NCBI GenBank assembly: GCA_947499125.1
Contig: CANMMP010000001.1
Span: 496,001 to 560,000 of the forward strand
DNA length: 64,000 nt
Reading direction: 5' to 3'
Source of the DNA: an uncultured Pontibacter sp.
GTDB taxonomy: Bacteria > Bacteroidota > Bacteroidia > Cytophagales > Hymenobacteraceae
Part shown: in pieces, positions 39,047 through 47,182 of the stretch
Numbering within the stretch: the first letter of the stretch is position 1
How the letters are laid out: each line of letters starts with the position of its first letter
Notes under the pieces: generated by a model
Database searches by the model: none
Told to the model about the DNA's origin: nothing
The model's input: the letters and a program-made list of their open reading frames with translations, nothing else
Translations under genes and position numbers: made by a program

Positions 39047-40309
39047 CTAAACTTTTTCTTTTTCTAAACTAAACAAGGCTGCTAATCCTTCTACTAATGC
39101 CTCCGACTCACCGCGCATACAGGCGGCTTTCAACTCTAAAGCAGGTAGTTTTACAATTTTGTTCAGGATGTTTTTAGTTAACGTTTCTACTACTTCTCTT
39201 TCCGCTTCGCCTAAACTTTTAAAGTAGCGGTTCAATTCCTGCTGACGAATTTCTTCAAGCTTGCTCTTAAACTGCTGTAGTGCCGGCGACATGGCCATTT
39301 CGCGGGTCCAGGTGCTGAACTCTGCCATAGCATCTGCTATGATCTGCTGCACTTGTGGAATGGCTGCCATGCGAATTTCCAGAGCCTCTGAGGCGCGGTT
39401 TTTAATCGTATCAACATTGTATAATTCAACTCCCGGAATCTCCTCTAAAGCGCTATCAATACTGCGCGGCATAGATAGGTCCAGGAAGAATTTCGGGGTA
39501 TTTATGCCCTGCTTTTCTACTACTTCTTTATAGATGAAGAAACAATCGCCGGGCACAGACGAGATAACCACATCTGCTTTAGCAATTTCTTCCCACACGT
39601 TTTCCCAATACACCGCTGTGGCGTTTGTTTTCTCGGCTAAAGCCTGTGCTTTGTGGTGCGTGCGGTTAACAATAACCACGTTATTTATAGTTGATTTCTG
39701 GAAGTTATCACACACATTCGCCCCAATCTCTCCTACCCCGATCATCAACACACGTGGATTAACCAGATCAGCGATCAGTTCTTCTACCAACTCTACTGTG
39801 GCATACGATACTGAAGCGGCGCCATCGAAAAAGGCAGTCTCGTTAAATACCTGCTTGTTGGTAGCAAAAATGGTGTGCAGCAAACGGTGCAGGAACGGAC
39901 CAGCCATGTTGGCATCCGCCGACCACTGGTAGGCTTTCTTCACCTGGTTCAGTATCTGCATATCGCCAACTACCTGCGACTCCAGGCCAAGGCCAACATA
40001 AAACAAATGCTGCACAGCCTGCGCTGAGTCAGTGATATGCTTAAAGTAGGGAGTTATCTTTTTGGTAGCTACAAAGCCCCTTTCCATCGCAATTAACTTT
40101 ATAATTGCCTGGTCCAGTTCTTTATCGGAGCTATAGTATACTTCGGTGCGGTTGCAGGTCGAAAGTACCAGCACATCCTGTGCATCTGTAAAATCCTTTA
40201 TTTTATCTAACAGGTTACGGCAACCGATCTCGTTCAGGGCTACCGCTTCACGCACATTAATAGGCGCATGTTTGTAAGATAATGTGAGGGCTTTAAAGTT
40301 GTTTTGCAT
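39047..40309 (-). CDS. hemA: Glutamyl-tRNA reductase
   Basis: 420 residues. Catalytic C52 is in STCNRTE; the NADPH Rossmann motif is MIGVGEIGANVCDNF; the C-terminal helical dimerisation domain ends LAALFSLEKEKV. First step of C5-pathway tetrapyrrole synthesis (glutamyl-tRNA to glutamate semialdehyde). Alone on the strand, between complex I and the putative haem-sensor operon. Confidence 0.96.
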   Translation of the reverse strand: MQNNFKALTLSYKHAPINVREAVALNEIGCRNLLDKIKDFTDAQDVLVLSTCNRTEVYYSSDKELDQAIIKLIAMERGFVATKKITPYFKHITDSAQAVQHLFYVGLGLESQVVGDMQILNQVKKAYQWSADANMAGPFLHRLLHTIFATNKQVFNETAFFDGAASVSYATVELVEELIADLVNPRVLMIGVGEIGANVCDNFQKSTINNVVIVNRTHHKAQALAEKTNATAVYWENVWEEIAKADVVISSVPGDCFFIYKEVVEKQGINTPKFFLDLSMPRSIDSALEEIPGVELYNVDTIKNRASEALEIRMAAIPQVQQIIADAMAEFSTWTREMAMSPALQQFKSKLEEIRQQELNRYFKSLGEAEREVVETLTKNILNKIVKLPALELKAACMRGESEALVEGLAALFSLEKEKV

Positions 40310-40404
40310 CTTGGTCTTTCAGATTACCATGCAAAATTGCGAAATGCTACTCAACAGAAACATGACGATAGTCACTTATCGAAAAGATTGATGTCAATTT
40401 TAAT

Positions 40405-40700: not shown

Positions 40701-41762
40701 TCAATTCCGCATTTTGGCCAGCTTCGCAGAATCAAGTATAAAGATACGGCTGCCCTGGCTATCGATCAGCTTTTCGTCTTTAAAGTCGGCTAAAGTTCGG
40801 ATAACGGTCTCTTTGGAAGCACCAACTATACTGGCCAGGTCTTCGCGGGTAATGCTGATCTGGGTTTTGTCGCCGGCCTGTTGCTGGTATTGTTTCTCTA
40901 CTAGAAGCAAAGCCTCAGCCACACGTTTGCGCACCGAGTTATAAGCCAGTTTCAGCAAGCGTTCTTCGCGGTCGGCCAGGTTATCCGAAAGTATCTTGAT
41001 GAATTTGTTAGCGATATCGCGGTTATGGTTCAGCAGCGAGAAAAAGTCTTCTTTAGGTATAATGTATACTTCCGAATCTTCGAGCGAAACAGCCGACTCG
41101 CGGTATGGTTGCTCTTCCAGTAGATCCAGGTAACCTATAAAGTCGCCGTCTTTGTAAAGGTTGGTAATGTACTCGCGGCCTTCTTCGTTTGCCTTAAAAG
41201 TTTTGATCTTTCCTTTGTTCAGGAAGTATAATGCAGTTGGTCGGTAACCTTCCATAAACAGGTGCTGCTTTTTCTTAAACACCGTAACTTTCCGCTTATC
41301 CGACAGCAGTTTATTCAGGTCTTCGAAGCCGCGTGCTTCCTGTATAAAGTTGTCGATGCCCTCTACGTTCTTAGTGAATTCTGCTTTCAGAATATCGTTC
41401 TTTTTCAAACGCATTTCCACTGCATCCAACAGTTCCAGGTCGTCGAAAGGTTTGGTCAGGTAATCATCGGCACCCAGGTTCATACCTTTTCTAAAATCTT
41501 CTTTTTCAGATTTGGCTGTCAGGAAAATGAACGGAATACTGGATGTTGAAGGATTTTTACTGAGCATGTGCAGCACACCATAGCCATCGAGCTGAGGCAT
41601 CATAATGTCGCAAATTATCAGGTCTGGATGCTCGTTTTTGGCCAGCTCAACGCCTACTTTTCCGTTCTCAGCTTCCAGTACGTTATAGTTTGCCAGCGTC
41701 AGTATTTCGGCAGTATTTTCTCTGATCTCCTGATTGTCTTCTATCAGCAATATTTTTTTCAT
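40701..41762 (-). CDS. Receiver-Crp/Fnr fusion transcriptional regulator
   Basis: 353 residues. Receiver domain about 1-120 with phospho-acceptor D52 (LIICDIMMPQLDGYG) and K103-region LTKPF. A cyclic-nucleotide-binding-type domain is at about 150-265 (LYFLNKGKIKTF, DFIGYLDLL) and a Crp-type helix-turn-helix at about 285-350 (ITREDLASIVGASKETVIRTLADF). This joins phosphorelay input directly to Crp-type DNA binding. Two bp after the upstream hybrid kinase gene, so certainly co-transcribed. No Fe-S cysteines of Fnr type are seen. Confidence 0.93.
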   Translation of the reverse strand: MKKILLIEDNQEIRENTAEILTLANYNVLEAENGKVGVELAKNEHPDLIICDIMMPQLDGYGVLHMLSKNPSTSSIPFIFLTAKSEKEDFRKGMNLGADDYLTKPFDDLELLDAVEMRLKKNDILKAEFTKNVEGIDNFIQEARGFEDLNKLLSDKRKVTVFKKKQHLFMEGYRPTALYFLNKGKIKTFKANEEGREYITNLYKDGDFIGYLDLLEEQPYRESAVSLEDSEVYIIPKEDFFSLLNHNRDIANKFIKILSDNLADREERLLKLAYNSVRKRVAEALLLVEKQYQQQAGDKTQISITREDLASIVGASKETVIRTLADFKDEKLIDSQGSRIFILDSAKLAKMRN

Positions 41763-41764
41763 GG

Positions 41765-42997
41765 TTATGCTGTTGTTGGGTGTTTAGGGAATGTTATCCG
41801 GAATGTAGTTCCTTCGTTTAGTTCACTTTCGTAAGTTAAGGTGCCGCCCATAATATCTACGTAGCGGTTTACTATGTTTAGCCCCAGTCCGGTACCCTGT
41901 ATGTTGGTTACGTTCTGGGCCCTGAAAAACGGTGTAAATAAGTGCACTTTATCTGCATCCGGAATGCCAATACCCTGGTCTTTCACAGTTAGTTTTATAC
42001 CTGAATTTACTTCAGTATTAATAAATATCTGCTTGCCTTCGCCCGAATATTTGCTTGCATTAGATAACAGGTTCAGCAGGATATTTTTCATCAGTTGTTT
42101 ATCCAGCGTAACTTCTGTTTCTGGTCCGGTGTGGGTATAGTTTATCTTCTGTCCCAGCTTTACGAGCCCCTGCATTTCATCTACCACTTCAGCAGTAAAT
42201 TCATTCAGATCGAAAGTAGTAGGTACATTGTAAATCTTACCTTCCTCAATTCGGCTTATCGACAAGAAATCATTCAGGATGGTAGTAAGGTGACTTACTG
42301 CATTTTTGATACGTTCTACATGCTTCTGCCGCTTTTCGTCGTCGTCGGTAGTTTTATACTTGCTGATGAGCGAAGCCGACGACAGCACTGTACTGAGCGG
42401 CGTACGGAATTCATGTGAAGCTATAGTTACAAACCTCGACTTCAGTTCGTGTAGTTCTTTCTCTTTCTGTAAAGCCTTGCGTATCTCTACTTGTGCATCG
42501 TACAGGCTTCGGTTGGTTTCTTCCAGCTTTTTAACAGCTTCGCCCAGTTCGCGGGTACGGGCATCTACGCGCTGCTCCAGTTCGGAATTCAGCTTTTGAA
42601 TCTCGGCCAGGTTTTTGGCGTGCTCTATACTATAACGTATGGCTCGCTCCAGGCTAAACGGATCAAAAGTACCTTTTACCAAATAATCCGAAGCACCAAC
42701 GCGCATGGCTTTTTCGTCTGTTTCGCGGTCACTCTGGCCGGTTAAAAGTATAAACGGAGCCATACTTCCACCTTCTACGGCCTGGGTTATCAGTTCAAGG
42801 CCATCGTGCGCACCCAACCTGAAATCGACAAGGTAAATATCGTGCTTTCCCTCCTTTATCAGATCCAGTGCTTCGCTGAAAGAGGAAGACCAGTCCAGCA
42901 GGAAGTTACGCCCCGGGATATCTTCTATCGTATCGCGGGTAATGATAAAGTCATCTTCATCATCGTCTATCAGCAGTACACGTATCTTATCAGGCAA
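41765..42997 (-). CDS. Receiver-histidine kinase hybrid
   Basis: 410 residues. N-terminal receiver with D58 (YLVDFRLGAHDG), a coiled coil (about 125-185), HisKA with H195 in ASHEFRTPLS and a HATPase_c domain (NLLSNASKYS, DQGIGIP, GTGLGLNIV). No membrane segment or sensor domain, so it probably takes phosphate from another kinase and relays it to the receiver-Crp protein encoded next. Confidence 0.93.
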   Translation of the reverse strand: MPDKIRVLLIDDDEDDFIITRDTIEDIPGRNFLLDWSSSFSEALDLIKEGKHDIYLVDFRLGAHDGLELITQAVEGGSMAPFILLTGQSDRETDEKAMRVGASDYLVKGTFDPFSLERAIRYSIEHAKNLAEIQKLNSELEQRVDARTRELGEAVKKLEETNRSLYDAQVEIRKALQKEKELHELKSRFVTIASHEFRTPLSTVLSSASLISKYKTTDDDEKRQKHVERIKNAVSHLTTILNDFLSISRIEEGKIYNVPTTFDLNEFTAEVVDEMQGLVKLGQKINYTHTGPETEVTLDKQLMKNILLNLLSNASKYSGEGKQIFINTEVNSGIKLTVKDQGIGIPDADKVHLFTPFFRAQNVTNIQGTGLGLNIVNRYVDIMGGTLTYESELNEGTTFRITFPKHPTTA

Positions 42998-43066: not shown

Positions 43067-43519
43067 CTATGGCTTTGGCAATTCTACTATCTCGAACCAG
43101 TATTTGCTCAGGGTCTTCATCACATCAACCAGCGAACCAAAGGTTACCGGTTTGGTTATGAAGGAGCTTACACCCAGGTCGTAGGTGCGCAGAATATCTT
43201 CTTCCGCTTTTGATGTGGTCAGCACCACTACCGGTATCATACGTAGTTGGTCCTGCGATTTTATTTCCTTCAGGGCTTCACGACCATCTTTTTTAGGCAT
43301 GTTCAGATCCAGAAGTATAAGCCCGGGAGTCGGATACTTATCTTTGTCGTTAAACTTGCCTCTGTTGTTCAGGTAGTCCATCAGTTCTTCCCCGTTCTCA
43401 ACAAACTCGATGTGGTTATTCAGGCGGCTTTCTTCCAGCGCGTCTTTCACCAGCATGCGGTCTTCGGCATCATCGTCGGCAATAAGTATAATAATCGATC
43501 TTTTGTTCGGATTCATCAT
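43067..43519 (-). CDS. Single-domain response regulator (Rcp1/CheY-like)
   Basis: 150 residues, receiver only. Acidic pair DDD near 15-17, acceptor D71 (LILLDLNMPKKDG), VLTTS switch Thr and FITKP Lys. The long loop before the acceptor is typical of the phytochrome-partner Rcp1 group. Only 7 bp after the PAS kinase gene, so it is its likely partner. Confidence 0.94.
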   Translation of the reverse strand: MMNPNKRSIIILIADDDAEDRMLVKDALEESRLNNHIEFVENGEELMDYLNNRGKFNDKDKYPTPGLILLDLNMPKKDGREALKEIKSQDQLRMIPVVVLTTSKAEEDILRTYDLGVSSFITKPVTFGSLVDVMKTLSKYWFEIVELPKP

Positions 43520-43526
43520 TCTGTAT

Positions 43527-45068
43527 TTAATCCTGTAGGTGTTTTTTTGCTAAGGTAATAATAAATCGGGTGCCTTCCCCGGGTTTGCTTTTGGCTGTAA
43601 TATCGCCGCCATGGCGCACAGCTATTTTACGGCAAACTGCCAGTCCTATGCCCGATCCTTCGTACTTCTGCCCTTCCAGGCGCTGGAAAATGTTAAAGAT
43701 TCGGTCCAGATACTTTTCATCGAAACCAATGCCATTATCTTCTATACATATCTCCACCATTTCGTCGCCGGGCGTTGAGGTAAGGTGCGCGTGCCGTTGC
43801 ACTCCTCTGGAGGAAATAGACACGACAGGAGCTACACCTTCCTTATGAAACTTAATGGCATTGCTGATCAGGTTCTGGAATAACTGCCGCATCTGGGTAG
43901 GCTCGCCTTCAATAACCGGCAACGGCGACCTCACGATCTGTGCACTGGTTTGCTCTATCGTAACTTCCAGGTCTGAAAGCACTTCGGTCAGAATTTTATC
44001 GAGGTTTACTTTTACAAAAGCCTTCGATTTACTTGTCACCCTCGAGAAATCAAGCAGGTCATTTATCAGGTTCTGCATACGCGCAGCAGCGTTTAACATC
44101 CTGTCGATGTAGTCTTTGCCCTGGTCACTCAGCTTGTCATATTCTTTGGTTTTCAGGCGGTCGCCGAAGGCCTGTATCTTGCGCAACGGTTCCTGCAGAT
44201 CATGCGACGACACGTAGGCAAAATCCTGTAGTTCGCGGTTACTACGTTCCAGTTCGGCAGCATAACGGCGCAGGCGTTCTTCACTTACTTTCTGGCTTGT
44301 AATATCATGCACAAAACCGGTGTATACTTTCCGGTCGGCCAGCTGCACTTCGCTTATACTTAAAAAGAAAGGGAAAACTGTTCCATCCTTGCGCAAGCCC
44401 GATACTTCGCGGCCAATACCAATGATATGCGCTTCGCCGGTTTCGTGGTAGCGTTGCATGTAGGCATCGTGCAGGCTGCTGTCGGGTTCAGGCATCAGCA
44501 TACTTATATTGCGCCCCATTAACTCACTTTCGTGGTAGCCAAACAGCTTTTGTGCCGATGGGTTTATCATTTCCATAATACCGCGTGTGCTGATGGTAAT
44601 AATACCGTCAACTGCCGTCTTTATAATGGAGTTGAACTTGTTCTCGCTTTCGCGTAAGGCGGCTTCGGTCTTTTTAAGCTCGGTGATGTCGTGAACAATG
44701 CCTGTAAATATCTGCTTGTCCTTCAGCCTTACCTCGCTTATACTTAGCAGGAAAGGAAAAATAGTACCGTCTTTCTTTTTGCCAAGCACTTCGCGGCCAA
44801 TACCAATTATCTGGCCTATACCTGTGTCGTGATAGTTTTGGATGTATACATCGTGCAGGCTCTTGTCCGGCTCGGGCATCAGCATTTTTATATTCTGCCC
44901 GATCACCTCCTCCGGTTCGAAGCCAAAAATATGAGCAGCTGCGGGGTTCATGGTTTCTACCCTCCCCCGGTTATCGATCGTGATGATACCATCGATAGCC
45001 GTATCGATGATCGCTTTCAGGCGGGCCTGGCTGTCGAGGCTATAGATGTTGTCCTGGTTCTCTTCCAA
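43527..45068 (-). CDS. Tandem-PAS histidine kinase with FixL-type haem residues
   Basis: 513 residues, starting at TTG (45068); only four sense codons precede it before a stop, none ATG or GTG. PAS1 (about 15-130) and PAS2 (about 140-258) are clear duplicates. PAS2 carries H200 (SLHDAY), R206, H214, I215, R220, L236 and I238, the residues that hold haem in Bradyrhizobium FixL. PAS1 keeps the His (H72) and Arg (R92) but has N78 and Q86 at the other two. HisKA has H289 in VSSHDLQEPLR, then HATPase (NLISNAIKFH, GSGIGLAVC). No TM segments, so it is cytosolic. Probably an O2/gas or redox sensor; haem binding is inference. Confidence 0.9.
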   Translation of the reverse strand: MEENQDNIYSLDSQARLKAIIDTAIDGIITIDNRGRVETMNPAAAHIFGFEPEEVIGQNIKMLMPEPDKSLHDVYIQNYHDTGIGQIIGIGREVLGKKKDGTIFPFLLSISEVRLKDKQIFTGIVHDITELKKTEAALRESENKFNSIIKTAVDGIITISTRGIMEMINPSAQKLFGYHESELMGRNISMLMPEPDSSLHDAYMQRYHETGEAHIIGIGREVSGLRKDGTVFPFFLSISEVQLADRKVYTGFVHDITSQKVSEERLRRYAAELERSNRELQDFAYVSSHDLQEPLRKIQAFGDRLKTKEYDKLSDQGKDYIDRMLNAAARMQNLINDLLDFSRVTSKSKAFVKVNLDKILTEVLSDLEVTIEQTSAQIVRSPLPVIEGEPTQMRQLFQNLISNAIKFHKEGVAPVVSISSRGVQRHAHLTSTPGDEMVEICIEDNGIGFDEKYLDRIFNIFQRLEGQKYEGSGIGLAVCRKIAVRHGGDITAKSKPGEGTRFIITLAKKHLQD

Positions 45069-45352
45069 TGCAAACTTATTTTACTAAATATAACTACTCT
45101 GCATCAAATGGCAAAGCAGGCACTTAGTTACTAAACTTATAACAATTGCCTGAAATTACGCTTTTTGGCGCTTCGGGGCTATTATTCAACTATAAATCAT
45201 GTCAGCAGATATGAAAAAATAACTATATACACAAGAACATAAGTCAGTTTTAGTATTGATGCTGCTCATAGGTGGTTGGTTTGTACTTCTATAGCTTGCG
45301 CCTCAAATCTCCGGCTCCAGCCATAAATTTTATACTTTATAAAAGTCACACC

Positions 45353-47182
45353 ATGTCTCTTAAAACGCCGCACAACTTTCATTTGCCTGTTATGGGCCTT
45401 GCCTTTTCCATCGACTCGCCACTTAAGGTAGCGCGTTTCGGAATATCGTCAGTCGTATCGCTTAGCGACGATAGCCTGCTGGAACATACCCGTTCTCACT
45501 ACGCTAACCTGTACAACAAGCCTTACCAACCTATAACAGACAAAGAAGAAGACTACCGCGCCAACCGTACAACAGCTTTCCTGAACCTGCTGCACGAGAT
45601 AGTGGAAGAGCAAATGGCGGCGCTTAAATTGCAGGACTTTACACCAGACGCAGAGCTCAGCAAATATTTTACTTTACTTCCGGAAGATGCTCCACTAAAA
45701 CTGAAGTATAACAAGATGCTGCAAACTTCGGATGAAGCACTGCGTCAGCAACTACAAACCGAACTGCGCAATAGCCTGGTGGCCGGTAAAATTGATGTAA
45801 ACATCATGACCAAACTGGACAAGACCAACTATGACAAGTCCGGTGCGCCATTACCAGCAGAATTTAGCGATGCCCTGGCAGCACTGCGTGGTTTTACAAA
45901 TAGTAAAGTACAGGCATCAGTAGTATTTTCGGCTGGTATGAACATGAGACTTTTCGCTTACCTGGAGCAGTTTCCGTGCTTTTTACCTAATGCCAAAGGC
46001 GACTACGACAAGTCTGTCATCATAAAAGTAAGTGATTACCGCTCGGCTATGGTTCAGGGTAAGATCCTGGCAAAAAAAGGCATCTGGGTTTCAGAATACC
46101 GCATTGAGTCGGGCTTAAACTGTGGCGGACATGCTTTTGCTACCGATGGCTACCTGATAGGCCCGATCCTGCAGGAATTTAAAGAGAACAGGGAAGCGCT
46201 GCGATCAGAACTTTATAGTTTATACAGCTCTGCGCTGGCAAGTAAAGGCATACACGTACCGGGCGAGATTCCGGGGCAGCGTATTACCATGCAAGGTGGT
46301 ATTGGCACAGCCGACGAGCACAACTTCCTGCTTCGTTATTATGGCCTGGACGCTACTGGCTGGGGCACTCCTTTCCTGCTTGTGCCGGAAGCTACCACGG
46401 TTGACGAACCAACTTTACAACAGTTATCTGATGCCAGAGGGGAGGATTTATACCTGAGCCCTATATCGCCGTTGGGTGTTCCGTTTAATGCCCTGCGTGG
46501 TACCAGCAGCGAGCAGCTAAAACAAATGCGCATCGATAAAGGGAAGCCAGGCAGCCCATGTGTTAAAAAGCACCTTGTATCGAACACCGAATTCACGACA
46601 GAGCCTATCTGCACAGCTTCACGCAAATACCAGCGCCGTAAGCTGGAGCAACTACAAGAGCAGCTCGATACGCTGGCTATAACTCCCGAAAACTATAAAG
46701 CCGAAGAAATAGCCGTACTGGCAAAAGAATGCTTATGCGAAGGACTTGCCAACTCAGCCTTACAGATATTTAACATTGGTAAAAAGGCAGCCAACACAGC
46801 CGTAACTATTTGCCCGGGGCCAAACTTGGCTTACTTTTCCGGTATATTTAAATTACATGAAATGGTTGGCCACATTTATGGCCGGTTTAACGCCCTAAAT
46901 AAGAGCTACCGCCCGCACATGTTCGTGAACGAGCTTAAAATGTACATCGATTACTGGAAGAACAAGAAAGCGGAGCAACTGGAAACCATGACTGATAAGC
47001 AGGAAAAATACCTGCAGAACTTCTGGCAGAATATGCAGGAAGGTATAAGTTACTATAAAACAATAGTGCCCGAATTATTCAGAGAGCAGCTTGAGCGACA
47101 GGTAATTTTATTTGATGAGCTACTTGAAGCAGAAGATTTTTTACAGCAGATCAGCTTAAAACGAGCACAGGTACTGGCCTAA
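45353..47182 (+). CDS. Conserved unknown protein, 609 residues, cysteine-containing
   Basis: Start at 45353 (MSLKTPHNFHLP) preferred because the upstream frame is AT-rich spacer. No family is assigned with confidence. The middle has alpha/beta barrel-like motifs (SVIIKVSDYRSAMVQGK, SGLNCGGHAFATDGYL, GWGTPFLLVPEA) recalling FMN-binding nitronate monooxygenase/glutamate-synthase-type barrels. A C-terminal set of cysteines (C403, C420, C460, C462, C487; also C257) could bind metal or Fe-S. The tail is helical. Eight bp before queD, so the two form an operon and may share a pterin or deazapurine pathway. Confidence 0.75.
   Translation: MSLKTPHNFHLPVMGLAFSIDSPLKVARFGISSVVSLSDDSLLEHTRSHYANLYNKPYQPITDKEEDYRANRTTAFLNLLHEIVEEQMAALKLQDFTPDAELSKYFTLLPEDAPLKLKYNKMLQTSDEALRQQLQTELRNSLVAGKIDVNIMTKLDKTNYDKSGAPLPAEFSDALAALRGFTNSKVQASVVFSAGMNMRLFAYLEQFPCFLPNAKGDYDKSVIIKVSDYRSAMVQGKILAKKGIWVSEYRIESGLNCGGHAFATDGYLIGPILQEFKENREALRSELYSLYSSALASKGIHVPGEIPGQRITMQGGIGTADEHNFLLRYYGLDATGWGTPFLLVPEATTVDEPTLQQLSDARGEDLYLSPISPLGVPFNALRGTSSEQLKQMRIDKGKPGSPCVKKHLVSNTEFTTEPICTASRKYQRRKLEQLQEQLDTLAITPENYKAEEIAVLAKECLCEGLANSALQIFNIGKKAANTAVTICPGPNLAYFSGIFKLHEMVGHIYGRFNALNKSYRPHMFVNELKMYIDYWKNKKAEQLETMTDKQEKYLQNFWQNMQEGISYYKTIVPELFREQLERQVILFDELLEAEDFLQQISLKRAQVLA

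Follow-up and report, generated by a model that had tools for sequence, protein, structure and literature searches.

The window analysed here, a stretch of 64,000 nucleotides (positions 496,001 to 560,000 of contig CANMMP010000001.1) from the genome of an uncultured Pontibacter sp. (16 contigs, 3.98 Mb), encodes a tandem-PAS histidine kinase at the head of an operon of signalling genes (Table 1). The locus raises the question of whether a kinase of this phylum senses oxygen through haem in the manner of rhizobial FixL and, if so, which genes would respond to it. In Flavobacterium psychrophilum, oxygen limitation induces cbb3 and haem-synthesis genes (PMC9723704; this and the other papers given by PMC number are cited from the parts of their text that were available). 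No sensor for a high-affinity respiration switch in Bacteroidota was found in the literature searched, coverage of which was partial, and the open-licence literature searched held no account of a FixL-type system in Bacteroidetes or Pontibacter, an absence of little weight; as far as their available text goes, three papers, PMC4999443, PMC8510549 and PMC13430161, mention both FixL and a Bacteroidetes word, PMC8510549 doing so for FixL among its references.

Table 1. Features of the sensor operon and its surroundings in the window (positions are those of the window)
Feature	Position	Strand	Remarks
Promoter-like TTTG-N19-TATATTTA	45085..45115	-	identified by eye; immediately upstream of sensor gene
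PAS-PAS-histidine kinase (sensor)	43527..45068	-	ORF of 513 aa, TTG start; first gene of operon
PAS1, residues 13-128	44685..45032	-	H72, I87, R92, L108, I110 correspond to FixL H200, I215, R220, L236, I238
PAS2, residues 141-256	44301..44648	-	H200, R206, H214, I215, R220, L236, I238
HisKA of sensor, residues 280-346	44031..44231	-	Pfam; phospho-acceptor H289
HATPase_c of sensor, residues 389-508	43545..43904	-	Pfam
Single-domain receiver	43067..43519	-	phospho-site D71; phytochrome response regulators Rcp1, RcpA and RcpB among solved relatives near top of list
Receiver-histidine kinase	41765..42997	-	D58 in receiver, H195 in HisKA
Receiver-Crp regulator (REC-Crp)	40701..41762	-	Response_reg, cNMP_binding and HTH_Crp_2; D52
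Crp-type box, core TGAC-N4-GTCA	40362..40375	-	centred 59 bp upstream of hemA start
hemA, glutamyl-tRNA reductase	39047..40309	-	TIGR01035, 317.7 bits (cut-off 209.55); downstream of REC-Crp

Haem-pocket residues in the two PAS domains

The closest named relative of the sensor protein is found in Pontibacter fetidus (91% identity). Pfam assigns it two PAS domains, one HisKA and one HATPase_c domain in this order, i.e., the tandem-PAS architecture of the Bradyrhizobium FixL (BjFixL), both PAS domains of which are spanned by structure 8js5; bacteriophytochrome kinases are among the matches of the kinase core, and the protein appears by eye to be soluble. The promoter-like stretch upstream of the gene, which may follow the Bacteroidetes promoter consensus, is mostly kept in a five-sequence alignment. 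The alignment of PAS2 (query residues 142-267) with the haem domain of BjFixL had no gaps (E = 6e-34), and residues 121-273 of the sensor aligned without gaps to residues 120-272 of the tandem-PAS construct 8js5 (E = 4e-39); because of these gapless alignments and their E-values, we regard the likeness as homology and reject chance or artefact. The first-pass annotation had placed seven FixL-like residues in PAS2 and H72 in PAS1; all are found where it placed them, and the spacing match that it described is borne out by the gap-free alignment to BjFixL. The agreement in residue numbers, which it had put down to coincidence, follows from the PAS-PAS-kinase layout that is common to both proteins. 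Against the FixL equivalog NF041777, the sensor scored 329.8 bits, far below the curated cut-off of 850.

BjFixL is described as a water-soluble protein with a PAS-A domain, haem in PAS-B and His-291 as phosphorylation site (PMC12116688, available part). A soluble double-PAS haem kinase, which the first-pass annotation had made the input of a circuit not described from this group, is the layout of BjFixL itself. The Pontibacter sensor resembles BjFixL in its succession of tandem PAS, HisKA and HATPase domains, in the gapless homology of the haem PAS and in the correspondence of H289 to His-291, and differs from it in that the pocket core is present in both PAS domains, while BjFixL has its haem in PAS-B.

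Conservation of the pocket was assessed among 34 non-identical orthologs (window included), which were derived from 36 matches with > 70% identity and which leave the proteins of genomes G012, G023, G033, G034, G035 and G040 outside the count. The proximal His, the distal Arg and the hydrophobic triad occur together in PAS2 and likewise in PAS1, the two domains being 59% identical. All 34 orthologs retained the PAS2 core (H200, I215, R220, L236 and I or V at 238) as well as the PAS1 core (H72, I87, R92, L108 and I or V at 110), of which H72 had been noted previously and the remainder overlooked. The claim that PAS2 carries the "full" FixL set thus holds for a core of five residues and fails for the set of seven, which was found together in only 5 of the 34 orthologs (the window and four relatives with approx. 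90% identity): position 214 is H in 5 and R in 27 orthologs, and position 206, presumably the counterpart of R200 in Sinorhizobium FixL, is R in 7 and H in 21. Sinorhizobium FixL with R200 replaced by A, Q, E or H shows similar haem spectra (PMC10765370, in the text available), and the variation at position 206 is therefore no argument against haem. A further alignment comprised 56 PAS domains that are 40-91% identical to PAS1, namely 22 of the 34 PAS1 rows and 34 of 36 other rows, for which the His and a length of ≥ 100 aa were required. Of its 125 columns, 16 were invariant, and those of H200, I215, R220 and L236 were among them; as the His was pre-selected in 34 of the 56 rows, only the I215, R220 and L236 positions represent a test.

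Predicted structures were consistent with these alignments. The AlphaFold2 model of PAS1 alone (mean pLDDT 87.1) matched BjFixL haem-domain structures with Z scores of 18.9-19.6 (at best 1.4 Å rmsd over 109 residues) and Sinorhizobium FixL with a Z score of 18.3, whereas FG214, DosP and other non-FixL PAS domains reached 15 at most; since the offset is constant across the aligned ranges of PAS1 and FixL, H72 is predicted to superpose on FixL H200. In the model of the PAS1-PAS2 tandem (mean pLDDT 67.6), PAS2 matched BjFixL 2cmn with a Z score of 19.2 (1.7 Å over 116 residues), H200 falling on H200. The structure-based alignment to FixL that the first-pass annotation had proposed thus puts H200, and H72 too, on FixL H200 in these models, with no sign, at the level of alignment, of H200 pointing away from the pocket, and the His at FixL position 200 (helix F-alpha) is matched by H200 and H72 in sequence as well as in predicted fold. 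For the PAS1-PAS2 pair, Foldseek ranked the BjFixL tandem-PAS structure first, yet with an rmsd of 18 Å; the pair could not be superposed on 8js5 as a rigid body, the linker being of low confidence and the model of modest confidence.

According to Xing et al., it is primarily the His that determines haem binding in the FixL/DosP cluster, 40% of which they report to be without it (PMC10468136, available text). With 45-49% identity to BjFixL over aligned residues, the PAS domains of the sensor, we infer, belong with the FixL/DosP type (cluster 3). The frequent loss of the His in this cluster, and its presence in related PAS domains that have a different pocket, would fit a reading in which neither PAS binds haem and what is conserved is a relic of the fold; we regard this reading as very improbable, as the sensor has kept not only the presumed primary determinant but the whole pocket core, which persists from genus to genus, frequently next to cbb3 genes. 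Because sister kinases adjoining REC-Crp keep the His in a different pocket (a second PAS subtype, 13 of 19 PAS rows, with the His and without the FixL triad), the His alone is not diagnostic of haem, and we rejected it as sole evidence. Taken together, the residues of the sensor make a FixL-type haem-PAS pocket a very likely prediction. Another alternative is that PAS2 is the sole haem sensor and PAS1 a structural or dimerisation domain like PAS-A of BjFixL, which carries its haem in PAS-B (PMC12116688). The Lys that occupies PAS1 position 90 (FixL 218) in 24 of the 34 orthologs would agree with this, as would two relatives: G035, a genus member, encodes a 418-aa kinase whose only PAS domain is 76% identical to PAS2 vs. 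67% to PAS1, and in G040, an order-level relative belonging to a different family, the four-gene set includes a PAS1 that has neither the His nor the pocket. A second haem PAS can thus be dispensed with. On the other side stand the whole PAS1 core in 34/34 orthologs and a PAS1 model whose match to the haem domain of FixL is as good as that of PAS2; we consider a sensor with haem in PAS2 only to be a serious possibility, but the lesser one, and PAS1 to be probably part of the sensor as well.

The operon and its relatives in the class

The operon runs from the PAS-PAS-kinase through the receiver and the receiver-kinase to the receiver-Crp protein and is followed by hemA; the gaps within it are 7, 69 and 2 bp, and a further 391 bp separate REC-Crp from hemA. 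The four genes from sensor to REC-Crp were found in the same order and on the same strand in 26/26 loci, and hemA was located downstream of them in 22 of these 26 (L042 with an intervening 530-aa ORF). The residues expected of a phosphorelay were invariant throughout, i.e., H289 of the sensor (26/26 sequences), D15, D16, D71, T101 and K123 of the single receiver (23/23), D11, D12, D58, T86, K108 and H195 of the receiver-kinase (25/25), and E8, D9, D52, T82 and K104 of REC-Crp (26/26). No FixJ-type (receiver-LuxR) partner adjoins the sensor, its partners being the receiver, the receiver-kinase and the receiver-Crp protein. The kinase core of the receiver-kinase is a relative of PAS-kinases that adjoin REC-Crp in other genomes.

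In a sample of 395 genomes of the phylum, a relative of PAS2 (E of 1e-18 or better) was present in 98 and a relative of REC-Crp (1e-45 or better) in 56, all of the latter from the window's class or closer, so that strong PAS matches outside the class come from genomes that gave no REC-Crp relative at this cut-off. Within the class, and with the window's own genome set aside, each of the 20 genomes with a strong FixL-type PAS (E < 1e-30) also had REC-Crp, which adjoined the PAS gene in 18 and was located approx. 17 kb (G121) and approx. 14 kb (G215) from it in the other two; REC-Crp was not limited to genomes with a strong FixL-type PAS. In 15/15 class-level loci (L118-L132), the PAS forms part of a kinase that is 39-51% identical to the receiver-kinase of the window; 13 of the 15 stretches include a receiver-Crp protein (43-53% identical), which directly adjoins this kinase in each case. 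In ten of these 15 loci, the stretch also contained ccoNO, hemN or a gene for a ccoI-like ATPase (identified in representatives). Closer to the window, ccoNO, ccoP, ccoG, fixH and genes for a DsbD_2 protein and Usp directly precede the sensor operon of P. pamirensis (L039, the same region as L101), and homologous cbb3 genes are found near the sensor in L103 and L104 as well, giving 3 of 20 loci; the window's own genome has its cbb3 cluster on the same contig as the sensor, elsewhere on it.

The kinase core of the receiver-kinase type was found in 25 of 30 REC-Crp loci read and was absent in 5. These 25 loci, window included, comprise 6 with a FixL-type PAS row, 13 with the other subtype and 6 without a PAS row of sufficient length. 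The FixL-type sensor is hence one of at least two predicted inputs to REC-Crp, the other PAS subtype serving elsewhere. In the PAS tree, the FixL-type domains of the class-level pairs are placed close to both PAS domains of the sensor, and their receiver-Crp protein likewise stands beside the kinase; unlike the Pontibacter operon, these systems have two proteins rather than four, and carry a PAS on the kinase where the Pontibacter kinase has a receiver. In the Pontibacter line, the REC-Crp-side kinase thus appears to have exchanged its PAS for a receiver, with a separate PAS-PAS kinase and a receiver standing upstream. The literature searched (titles and abstract starts) held no account of the PAS-kinase/receiver-Crp pairs of the class.

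In the same tree, PAS1 and PAS2 fell into a clade of 41 rows with PAS domains of Bacteroidota (not starred, support 86/98), and BjFixL grouped with alphaproteobacteria (7 rows, 100/99). A recent transfer from rhizobia was considered and is disfavoured by this tree, which, with 116 columns and unsettled bootstrap values, gives a lean rather than proof. The long-branch row L110_PAS1 in the tree is the degenerate PAS1 of G040.

Among 37 genomes of the genus, G016 and G022 were without the sensor at the cut-off used and likewise without a ccoN over the family cut-off and without the paired promoter boxes described below; G022 contained a REC-Crp fragment (74% identical) with an internal stop. Conversely, G007 (87% complete) had the sensor and no ccoN over the cut-off. 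The joint loss of sensor, ccoN and paired boxes in two genomes is suggestive only.

A TGAY-N4-RTCA box at respiratory and haem-synthesis genes

When palindromes of 5+5 bases were counted in 64 upstream regions, AATGA-N6-TCATT ranked first with 7 regions (maxima of 2-4 in 20 rounds of letter shuffling), and the core TGAY-N4-RTCA was present in 35 of the 64 (mean of 1.44 and maximum of 6 in 200 rounds of two-base block shuffling), the motif having been found and counted on the same set, which holds many near relatives and one region twice (L039/L101). Independent support for the box therefore comes from the paired-site search with its control, the hemA count and nirK. By gene, the core was found upstream of ccoNO in 7/7, ccoI in 5/7, the sensor in 16/27 and the class-level PAS-kinase in 6/14 regions, while it was scarce before hemN (1/8) and was found in 0/1 regions of an FNR-like gene. 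Each of the ccoNO (7) and ccoI (5) regions with a box had two boxes exactly 22 bp apart, an arrangement also seen upstream of the sensor gene in L041 and L043.

Paired sites of this kind occurred four times in the window's own genome, before ccoG, ccoNO, ccoI and nirK (0 in a reversed-pattern control), the nirK product scoring over the TIGR02376 cut-off. Across 41 genomes of the genus, 141 paired sites were found as compared to 3 in the reversed-pattern control, and 39 genomes had at least one. Eight further loci had sites outside the cbb3 cluster; a nirK-type gene was located downstream in six of them (called by eye, two of the six being family-tested) and L195 and L200 were without one. Paired boxes also adjoin ccoN in another genus of the same family (G129, G223 and G443); in L177 and L184, which represent the two of these genomes with a kinase read, the partner kinase of REC-Crp is of the other PAS subtype. 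An FNR box (TTGAY-N4-RTCAA) was tried in the window's own genome and dropped, with 9 sites vs. 33 in the reversed control; its site before ccoG is half of the paired TGAY-N4-RTCA site.

Upstream of hemA, the box was present in 21 of 22 related loci and was located 45-60 bp from the start in 18 of them. Since a scan of the window alone with the 14-base box gave 7 matches, i.e., chance level (shuffled mean of 5.8), the support for the hemA box lies in its conservation: in the same loci, a single box within 300 bp was found for 25 of 155 other genes taken as background, as compared to 21/22 for hemA. Under the same rule, the sensor had a box in 15/26, a 636-aa gene divergent from the sensor in 8/9, an ABC-F gene in 2/3, genes labelled as cbb3/Usp cluster in 5/20, and the three inner operon genes in 0 cases. 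The exact box was absent from the sensor promoter of the window itself, as it was from 11 of the 27 sensor promoters, and was present in those of three of the four nearest relatives (L038, L099 and L100, not L098).

Proposed oxygen relay and alternative readings

The elements established at the level of sequence are the gene order, the intact phosphorylation sites, the conserved haem-pocket residues and the conserved boxes. We consider it probable that they make up a FixL-like, haem-based low-oxygen relay from the sensor to REC-Crp and on to cbb3, nirK and hemA, with haem binding, signal direction and the box-binding factor as its putative parts. PAS2, and probably PAS1, would bind haem b via H200 and H72, respectively, and report oxygen to the kinase core in the manner of FixL. 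Phosphate would then pass from H289 to D71 of the single receiver and/or D58 of the receiver-kinase, H195 of the latter would phosphorylate D52 of REC-Crp, and REC-Crp would bind the TGAY-N4-RTCA boxes and, when oxygen is scarce, turn on ccoNO, ccoI, ccoG, nirK and hemA. The link between sensor and REC-Crp is supported by the operon structure, the repeated adjacency elsewhere and the shared promoter box; the first-pass annotation's notion of a double-PAS sensor feeding a receiver-Crp factor stands to that extent, with two further relay proteins to be placed between them. On this reading a FixL-like sensor lies in a phylum outside the rhizobia, and the regulator probably switches high-affinity respiration, nitrite respiration and haem synthesis at low oxygen.

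The proposed circuit would work much like FixL-FixJ-FixK, with the FixJ receiver and the FixK Crp output merged in one protein. It differs from FixL-FixJ-FixK2 in having no FixJ, a fused receiver-Crp output and two extra proteins in the operon. FixLJ-FixK2 of B. diazoefficiens acts on denitrification genes including nirK (PMC6710368, available part). In layout, the relay matches NmpU-NmpT-NmpS-NmpR of Myxococcus: as in NmpRSTU and Anaeromyxobacter AfGcHK, a soluble haem kinase (here predicted), a receiver-only protein, a receiver-kinase and a receiver-transcription factor are encoded in one locus. In contrast to NmpRSTU, the haem domain here is a FixL-type PAS and not a protoglobin, the receiver-only protein has one receiver where NmpT has two, and the output is Crp-like where NmpR is NtrC-like; the two relays were likely assembled independently. 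According to the model of the authors of the M. xanthus study, NmpS is turned off when its receiver is phosphorylated by the haem kinase NmpU, and once oxygen is depleted NmpS is free to phosphorylate NmpR, the targets including cbb3 oxidase, the associated P-type ATPase and hemN (PMC11841059, in its available text). If phosphorylation switches the receiver-kinase off, as this model has it for NmpS, the PAS-PAS kinase would need to be active with oxygen bound, opposite to FixL; the kinase might be active with oxygen bound, by analogy to NmpRSTU, or without oxygen, by analogy to FixL. The single receiver is close to Rcp1, RcpA and RcpB and, with a kinase core that matches bacteriophytochrome kinases among others, recalls Cph1-Rcp1, from which the system differs in having no phytochrome photosensory domain by Pfam.

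Two alternatives concern the output of the relay and its signal. An FNR-like Crp protein (L151:16961-17710), probably an Fe-S sensor, adjoins cbb3 genes, has clustered N-terminal cysteines and has Fnr as its best NCBIfam match, below the cut-off (97.7 of 228 bits); as its recognition helix (AKETTIRLL) is nearly identical to that of REC-Crp (SKETVIRTL), this protein could be the factor on the boxes, with the sensor and relay still answering to low oxygen and REC-Crp having a different regulon. We hold this to be unlikely, though within reason, as the box at hemA behind REC-Crp in 21/22 loci and those at sensor-operon promoters (16/27) fit the operon's own regulator better. Both Crp-family factors may also bind the boxes; FixK and FnrN overlap in rhizobia. 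The placement of hemA after the operon (22/26 loci) and its box, together with the fact that cbb3 subunits are haem proteins, could be taken to mean that the PAS domains hold haem loosely and sense its supply, with the circuit tuning hemA and haem-protein genes. This we judge improbable: R220, I215, L236 and I/V238, which we take to be the distal-side residues of the FixL oxygen site, are conserved with the His in 34/34 orthologs, and among the boxed genes nirK (copper) and ccoI do not encode haem proteins.

Beyond the oxygen relay as such, a more specific scenario can be offered, which we put forward as tentative and somewhat doubtful: a dual-haem kinase with two oxygen set-points or cooperative behaviour would feed a four-step, possibly sign-inverting relay with a fused receiver-Crp output, the whole having grown within the class from a PAS-kinase/receiver-Crp pair by exchange of the PAS for a receiver, with the sensor moved to a separate kinase. 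The parts and the principle are known (FixL, Rcp1-type receivers, Crp, NmpRSTU); as far as our searches go, their combination, the second PAS with a pocket core, the receiver-Crp fusion in this role and the Bacteroidota setting are new in the literature searched. For each of the sensor, the relay, the output factor and the binding site, the Pontibacter locus offers a candidate that can be tested within one genus. Moreover, two-protein systems, four-protein systems, a four-protein system with a single PAS (G035) and one with a pocket-less first PAS (G040) form a natural series in which one can ask how phosphorelays grow and what a second haem PAS adds.

FNR-like regulator and REC-Crp

A second candidate factor for the TGAY-N4-RTCA boxes, an FNR-like Crp regulator, is encoded elsewhere in the same genome. 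When compared by sequence, its recognition helix is almost the same as that of REC-Crp, so that two O2 inputs, i.e., the FNR-like regulator and REC-Crp, may use the same boxes. The FNR-like protein carries clustered cysteines at its N-terminus, and a ccoI-like gene adjoins its gene. The genome that holds a decaying REC-Crp fragment (G022) has neither the sensor nor a cbb3 ccoN above the cut-off.

Locations of the regulators, kinases and divergent gene discussed here
Feature	Location	Strand	Remark
FNR-like Crp regulator	L151:16961-17710	-	own genome, contig C1 near 233 kb
Decaying REC-Crp fragment	G022:C1:3367096-3367515 (L228)		74% identical, internal stop codon
G040 sensor kinase	L110:8561-10102		PAS1 without His
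G035 sensor kinase, 418 aa	L109:8226-9350		one PAS
636-aa protein	window 45272-47182	+	divergent from sensor operon

PAS domains of related kinases

Among the kinases adjoining REC-Crp in loci L157-L185, there is a second PAS subtype, often with RxMGxGRDL, in which His is retained at FixL position 200, while L236 and I/V238 are replaced by V/I and L, respectively. The order-level relative G040 has the four-gene set, with a PAS1 that lacks the pocket as well as the His; in the genus member G035, the sensor kinase has a single PAS domain, not two. Strong FixL-type PAS domains were also observed in Bacteroidota genomes absent from the REC-Crp list (L133-L137 and others, all outside the class of the window).

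Neighboring genes

The 636-aa protein has relatives in 9 of the compared stretches and showed no match in Pfam or NCBIfam at a threshold of 0.001. It contains HEMVGH, which fits the pattern HExxxH, a metallopeptidase-like motif. At four class-level loci (L119, L121, L123 and L125), a gene for a D-lactate-dehydrogenase-like 2-hydroxyacid dehydrogenase (identity based on a family test of one member) is located between REC-Crp and hemN, a position hinting that fermentation genes belong to the same regulon.
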